A DNA stretch of 33,610 nucleotides from contig VBDY01000162.1 in assembly GCA_005882775.1 (NCBI GenBank), positions 1 to 33,610 of the forward strand. The letters run 5' to 3'. Below are positions 20,955 to 22,365 of the stretch, piece after piece (the stretch's first letter is position 1; every line of letters begins with the position of its first letter). The notes under the pieces are model-generated. The model had not been told where the DNA came from. It saw only the letters and a list, made by a program, of their open reading frames with translations, and ran no database searches. This DNA is from Chloroflexota bacterium (GTDB lineage: Bacteria; Chloroflexota; Dormibacteria; CF-121). The translations under genes were made by a program, and so were the position numbers.

Positions 20955-21335
20955 GCGAGTCCGCCAGGCAGCCGCGGCAGGAGCGCACCTGTCGAGGAAA
21001 GTCCGAGCTCCGCAGAGCAGGGTGCCGGGTAACACCCGGTCGGGGTAACCCGAAGGAGAGTGCCACAGAAAAGACACAGCCGGTGGCAACACCGGCGAAG
21101 GTGAAATGGTGGTGGTAAGAGCCCACCAGCGGCCGGGAGACCGGCCGGCTAGGTAAACCCCACTCGGAGCAAGACCTAATAGGAGGACGAATCGGCTGGC
21201 TCGGCCGGTCCTCGGGTACGGTCGCTTGAGTCGTCGGGCAACCGGCGAACCAGACGGATGGCTGCCCCTCCGGTGCGTGCCGGCTTCGGCCGGCGAGGCG
21301 GAGGACAGAACTCGGCTTATCGGCGGACTCGCTCT
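20955..21335 (+). ncRNA. rnpB: RNase P RNA, bacterial class A
   Basis: GAGGAAAGTCCGAGCTCC, AGGGTGCCGGGTAA, AGTGCCACAGAAA, GGTGAAATGGTGGTGGTAAGAGCCCACC, TAGGTAAACCCCACTCGGAGCAAGACC; P1 strands GCGAGTCCGCC (20955-20965) and GGCGGACTCGC (21322-21332) are perfectly complementary. Confidence 0.97.
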
Positions 21336-21755: not shown

Positions 21756-21770
21756 GGTCGGGGTGGCCAG

Positions 21771-21826
21771 CCACAAGATGTAGTACCGGCCTGGCACACG
21801 CGACACCACGCCACAAGATTTAGTTC
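21771..21826 (+). promoter_or_regulatory. Pair of NrdR-box-like direct repeats
   Basis: GCCACAAGATGTAGT (21770-21784) and GCCACAAGATTTAGT (21810-21824), 40 bp apart; both cores (21774-21783, 21814-21823) fit CWANATNTWG of the NrdR-box consensus acaCwAtATaTwGtgt. Confidence 0.5.
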
Positions 21827-21833
21827 GAAATCG

Positions 21834-21862
21834 TTGACAGGCACCTGTCGCAGTGGTAAGTT
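21834..21862 (+). promoter_or_regulatory. Promoter of the mraZ/dcw operon
   Basis: TTGACA (21834-21839), 17-nt spacer, TAAGTT (21857-21862). Confidence 0.55.
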
Positions 21863-21883: not shown

Positions 21884-21908
21884 GTGGGGAATGGTGGGGA
21901 AAATGGGC
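21884..21908 (+). promoter_or_regulatory. MraZ-binding repeats (MraZ box)
   Basis: TGGGG at 21885 and 21895, TGGGC at 21904 (period about 10 nt), upstream of mraZ, as known for MraZ autoregulation (TGGGN repeats with 5-nt spacers). Confidence 0.75.
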
Positions 21909-21927: not shown

Positions 21928-22365
21928 ATGTTTCTTGGCACCTATCGCCACGCGGTGGACTCCAAGGGACGGCTGGCGATCCCGGCGCGGTTTCGGGAGC
22001 AGCTTCCCACCGGCAGCATCATCTCCAAGGGGGCAGAGGGGTGTCTCCAGGTCTACGGCCCGGACGAGTGGGTCAAGGAGCAGTCGGCCCTGCAACTGAC
22101 CTCCGAGAGCCCGGCCGAGGAGCGACGCCTCACCAGGATGCGATTCGGCGCCGCCCGGGAGTGCGAATTCGACGCCCAGGGCCGGATCGTCCTGTCCGCC
22201 GACCAGCGGGGCTATGCCGGGATCACCGGCATCGCCTGGATCGTCGGCGTCAACAACTTGATCGAGATCTGGAACGACGAGAATTGGCGTCGCATTGGCG
22301 AAGCAACGCCCGAGGAATACACGCGCATCCAGGACCAGGTGGCCGAGCGCCGGCGTGGAAAATGA
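21928..22365 (+). CDS. mraZ: Transcriptional regulator MraZ
   Basis: MFLGTYRHAVDSKGRLAIPARFREQLPTGSIISKGAEGCLQVY... at the head of the dcw cluster. Confidence 0.97.
   Translation: MFLGTYRHAVDSKGRLAIPARFREQLPTGSIISKGAEGCLQVYGPDEWVKEQSALQLTSESPAEERRLTRMRFGAARECEFDAQGRIVLSADQRGYAGITGIAWIVGVNNLIEIWNDENWRRIGEATPEEYTRIQDQVAERRRGK

Follow-up and report, generated by a model that had tools for sequence, protein, structure and literature searches.

The region upstream of mraZ, the first gene of the division/cell-wall (dcw) cluster, carries two similar 15-bp repeats in this Chloroflexota genome. The question raised by the locus is whether they form a site through which NrdR, described as a repressor specific to ribonucleotide reductase (RNR) genes, reaches the genes of cell division. 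We know of no dedicated transcription factor that couples dNTP supply to division/cell-wall genes. The sequence and its relatives, as set out below, indicate that the two repeats are probably one NrdR operator of the four-turn spacing class, situated upstream of the −35 element of the mraZ/dcw promoter. The window (i.e., the whole 33.6 kb stretch of DNA analysed) is one contig of a 2.85 Mb assembly that is 94% complete, and among named genomes its nearest relatives are metagenome assemblies from soil, labelled 'Chloroflexi bacterium'.

The mraZ Promoter

mraZ (21928–22365, plus strand) is identified by a match to NCBIfam TIGR00242 above the cut-off and is followed on the same strand by rsmH, ftsL, ftsI, murF, mraY, and others. 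Its promoter (21834–21862, plus strand) consists of TTGACA at 21834–21839, a 17-bp spacer, and a weak −10, TAAGTT, at 21857–21862, which remained unscored in a generic promoter scan. The pattern TTGACA-N17-TAnnnT is conserved among the mraZ promoters of the host's family (f1). The preliminary description of this DNA placed the end of the second repeat about 10 bp before the −35; the gap is 9 bp. The predicted boxes therein are located upstream of the −35, with centres near −50 and −90 relative to an assumed transcription start.

Downstream of the −10, TGGGG/TGGGC repeats with a period of ~10 bp can be read from the sequence at 21885–21908 (plus strand). They are kept in f1 and in the sister family f3, and are presumably the MraZ self-regulation boxes. 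Such boxes (TGGGN) share the promoter with the upstream repeats but differ from them in sequence and in the regulator that reads them; they do not account for the CCACAAGATnTAGT repeats. The interval from rnpB to mraZ contains no riboswitch or other RNA element according to Rfam. Rfam matches elsewhere in the window are the RNase P RNA gene at 20956–21335, just upstream of the mraZ region, and a TPP riboswitch at 1874–1978, near the window start.

Two Predicted NrdR Boxes

The repeats, GCCACAAGATGTAGT (21770–21784) and GCCACAAGATTTAGT (21810–21824), are exactly 40 bp apart, have 14 of 15 bases in common, and are embedded in unrelated flanks; both the spacing and the flanks had been noted in the preliminary description, and the coordinates agree with it exactly. 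The distal predicted box (box 1, CCACAAGATGTAGTAC, 21771–21786, plus strand) contains the core CAAGATGTAG at 21774–21783, and the proximal one (box 2, CCACAAGATTTAGTTC, 21811–21826, plus strand) the core CAAGATTTAG at 21814–21823. Both cores match the NrdR box consensus CWANATNTWG exactly, and the 16-bp boxes are separated by a spacer of 24 bp (21787–21810), corresponding to a centre spacing of 40 bp.

The two cores are the only exact matches to CWANATNTWG in the window, as compared to a mean of 0.09 in shuffled windows, none of which (0/100) contained two, and the earlier claim that both repeats fit the NrdR box is upheld by these counts. A matrix trained on nrdJ promoters from other families only ranks box 1 first and box 2 second in the whole window, with scores of 15.7 and 10.9, respectively, while the best score from 20 mononucleotide shuffles of the window is 15.1. 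Because the latter exceeds 10.9, box 2 by itself is unexceptional by matrix score, and the case for it rests on pairing and conservation.

Conservation in the Host's Family

mraZ was located in 15 of the 18 f1 genomes. Both boxes, the 40-bp spacing, and a near-constant distance to TTGACA are present in 14 of these 15 readable promoters, which represent four genera. The exception, G017 (L019), has an mraZ promoter without about 60 bp that include box 2 and the −35; this gap may be a real deletion or an assembly fault. A comparison between the four genera gives identities of 78% and 77% for the two boxes, a mean of 47% for the 30 bp that separate the cores, and 33% for the 40 bp preceding box 1. 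Across the 14 genomes, the commonest base reaches a mean frequency of 0.97 over the 16 core positions that are fixed and of 0.77 over the four that are free; the spacer averages 0.79 and the upstream sequence 0.49. It follows from these values that the conserved block starts at box 1, that the spacing is held while the spacer itself diverges, and that changes within the boxes fall mainly at the degenerate positions.

Counts across genomes come from pattern searches, with the reversed patterns as controls. If one mismatch is tolerated, the 40-bp pair of f1 is found in 14 f1 genomes, always 154–156 bp before mraZ, and is absent from the 43 other genomes of the class in the set of 61 searched; the reversed control pattern gave 1 match. 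When no mismatch is allowed, ten matches are obtained in 110 genomes of the class, all at f1 mraZ, and the control yields zero. The preliminary description took the repeats to be sites rather than a duplication scar, and the fixed spacing in 14 genomes, together with boxes that differ from each other in relatives, bears this out. The pair's conservation upstream of mraZ, on which that description had made its proposal depend, extends over the four genera and, in a related arrangement, into f3. In one genus (g4; L016–L026, L029), a conserved CCACAAG half-site, which is not a full NrdR box, is located 11 bp upstream of box 2.

The Sister Family and the Rest of the Phylum

Among f3 mraZ promoters, 15 of 20 carry boxes 41–43 bp apart, often together with a weaker third box another 31 bp upstream. 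In the five promoters that were fully read, the centre of the proximal box precedes TTGACA by 16–18 bp, and TGGGG repeats are found after the −10, which is the layout seen in the window. Pairs at 42 bp gave six matches in the 61 genomes, five of them upstream of mraZ. In f2 and f4, the remaining two families of the class, the pair search was negative for those mraZ promoters that were read.

Exact 42-bp pairs occur in nine of 400 Chloroflexota genomes, four times at mraZ and twice at other places. One further pair is immediately upstream of nrdR (G303; translated start MRCPYCGSEDSKVVDSRD), and another adjoins a gene that was recognised by visual inspection as encoding an RNR with an ATP cone (G098). 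The 42-bp matches in G071 were rejected as operators, as they belong to a 21-bp tandem repeat. Pairs with long spacing are thus a mark of mraZ and of established NrdR targets.

The mraZ leader of f3 (L194, L200, L195) is about 250–450 nt long. In these leaders, about 100–400 nt before mraZ, ATCGCGGTGATCAGTGGGGAGAAGTGG is almost the complement of CCACTTCTCCCCGCAGCCGCGAT, which follows later; this suggests either that the leader RNA is structured or that MraZ boxes are paired.

NrdR and the nrd Promoters of the Host

The host genome encodes one NrdR (TIGR00244, 203.9 bits), which is its sole ATP-cone match and whose gene stands at the far end of the mraZ cluster. The protein is complete: it has the zinc ribbon, with both CxxC pairs, and the ATP cone, and it retains D15, R17, and RRRR26–29, the residues that contact DNA in the Streptomyces structure.

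Upstream of host nrdJ and nrdR, the strict motif has no match; the boxes described here came from a search allowing 1–2 mismatches that was checked in relatives. The gene for the B12-dependent RNR, nrdJ, has a 32-bp pair, CCAGATATTG and ATAGCTGTTG, just upstream of its own TTGACA, and this pair is kept in f1. The proximal nrdJ box is weak; its centre is 16.5 bp ahead of TTGACA, as compared to 15.5 bp at mraZ. At nrdR, most f1 genomes conserve one box, which is situated 24 bp ahead of the start. The nrdJ-trained matrix ranks the distal nrdJ box and the nrdR box of the host first in their regions. The host nrd promoters, named in the preliminary description as the standard of comparison, share the motif of the mraZ pair in both cases, in line with the ranks that the window boxes obtain with the same matrix. 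A perfect DnaA-box word, TTATCCACA, is located between the two boxes of the host nrdJ promoter (L045:3150–3158).

Spacing and Comparison to Known Operators

NrdR operators have boxes with centres three (31–32 bp) or four (40–43 bp) helical turns apart, and the mraZ pair, at 40 bp, has the four-turn spacing. It also has the two CWANATNTWG boxes, the motif common to the host nrd promoters, and the conservation at the same gene that are characteristic of such operators. It is not at an RNR or nrdR promoter, its target being mraZ. An RNR target is usual for NrdR operators but is no requirement for binding.

The preliminary description saw in the 40-bp spacing a reason for doubt, since distances of 31–32 bp are frequent. 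This doubt is answered by measurements on four NrdRs, which require two boxes for binding and have a second affinity optimum at spacers of 24–27 bp, about four helical turns between centres (PMC12051234). The mraZ pair, with its 24-bp spacer, is by this measure at the short edge of the long-spacer class. The dissociation constants at a 24-bp spacer are 26 nM for Listeria, 141 nM for E. coli, 763 nM for Streptomyces, and 9.2 μM for pneumococcus (PMC12051234). The poor in vitro binding of some NrdRs to such spacers counts against reading the repeats as an operator, as do the mraZ promoters without boxes in f2 and f4.

Several systems offer a comparison. The pairs with short spacers (15–16 bp) at RNR operons of E. 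coli, Listeria, and S. coelicolor (nrdRJ) consist of the same palindromic word, on the same helix face and adjoining a promoter, and the host nrdJ pair itself has this form. The mraZ pair differs from them in its division/cell-wall target and in a spacing about one turn longer. The Streptococcus nrdHEF and nrdDG operators (25–26 bp; PMC12051234) share the four-turn box distance, whereas the mraZ pair has a 24-bp spacer, both boxes upstream of the −35, and a non-RNR target. An NrdR site has also been proposed at topA of P. aeruginosa (PMC4409342), which like mraZ is not an RNR gene. However, topA has a single box and reported activation, while mraZ has two conserved boxes.

Proposed Mechanism and Alternatives

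We infer binding, repression, and dATP dependence at mraZ. When dATP is plentiful, NrdR tetramers loaded with ATP/dATP would span both boxes, bending the DNA and impeding RNA polymerase at the mraZ promoter, as at nrdJ. A drop in dATP, as in active DNA synthesis, would release NrdR, such that the division/cell-wall genes and the RNR would be expressed together. This control would be supplemented by MraZ self-regulation, acting via the TGGGG repeats that follow the −10. The connection of dNTP status to division that had been suggested in the preliminary description is likewise an inference.

NrdR boxes are usually placed over the promoter. With the mraZ boxes upstream of the −35, the sign of regulation is uncertain. 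NrdR might thus bind but activate mraZ, since boxes near −50 and −90 would allow an activator to touch RNA polymerase, and NrdR has been reported to activate P. aeruginosa topA via its single box (PMC4409342). The mechanism at topA has been questioned (PMC12051234), and the geometry between box and −35 is almost identical at host nrdJ, for which repression is expected. As this geometry is common to both promoters, the same sign is argued for mraZ and nrdJ, and activation appears unlikely.

A second alternative assigns the sites mainly to NrdR autoregulation, with the dcw promoter being controlled because read-through reaches nrdR. In f1, f2, and f3, nrdR shares the strand of mraZ and lies 17–20 kb further downstream, and some f2 genomes place a pair before ftsA, just upstream of ftsZ and nrdR. 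Against this, nrdR carries a conserved box of its own, and in the host it is set apart from ftsZ by a gap of 770 bp that contains an opposite-strand frame; the division genes would be co-controlled in either case. As the main function of the sites, autoregulation is improbable, yet the position of nrdR downstream on the same strand means that it may be a part of the arrangement.

That another regulator with a similar palindromic word reads the boxes is considerably harder to sustain: a search for protein–DNA data for the phylum found none, which leaves it some room, but the same word and spacings recur at nrdJ, nrdR, and an RNR gene, and conservation tracks the NrdR signature position by position. 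A chance pair or duplication scar, suggested by the near-identity of the two window copies, is refuted by conservation (the spacing fixed in 14 genomes, the boxes differing from each other in relatives) and by two matches against 0.09 expected.

A Wider Candidate Regulon

NrdR box pairs elsewhere in the class suggest a tentative regulon beyond mraZ, nrdJ, and nrdR. In the host and most of f1, the gene for a conserved 101-aa protein with no Pfam match (L230, G000:C227:3966-4265, minus strand; L221–L232) has a 32-bp pair between promoter and start, and this gene is likely to be a new NrdR target. In f2, intergenic 32-bp pairs are directly upstream of smc in four genera (L116, L119, L178, L180), with the proximal box overlapping a TTGACG-like −35. 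In one genus of f2, 32-bp pairs are also found upstream of ftsA, clearly so in L122 and L123, and in a further genus a pair is close to ftsA (L118); the f2 ftsA cluster continues with ftsZ and nrdR. The pairs at parA in f3 (L171, L175, L177) were left uncounted, as they overlap the 5′ coding sequence and could be explained by a conserved peptide or codons.

In single genomes, 32-bp pairs adjoin purB, an IMP dehydrogenase-type gene, and a gene for a nucleobase permease (L176, L181, L179). It might be that these purine genes are under NrdR as well.

Significance

The regulator and the type of operator are known, and the mraZ target is, to our knowledge, new. In the parts of the open-licence literature reached by a search, no paper links NrdR to mraZ and no NrdR control of division genes is described. 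The mraZ pair also lends support to the four-turn spacing rule, and does so in an independent phylum. If the conserved mraZ operators function as proposed, NrdR would be a direct route from dNTP supply to the division/cell-wall genes. A broader view, which we regard as possible while stopping a little short of favouring it, is that NrdR acts as a cell-cycle regulator in this class, with dATP setting nrdJ, nrdR, the division/cell-wall cluster (through mraZ in two families and ftsA in a third), and smc. If this is true, the expression of division and segregation genes would be set together with DNA-precursor synthesis by the level of dATP.
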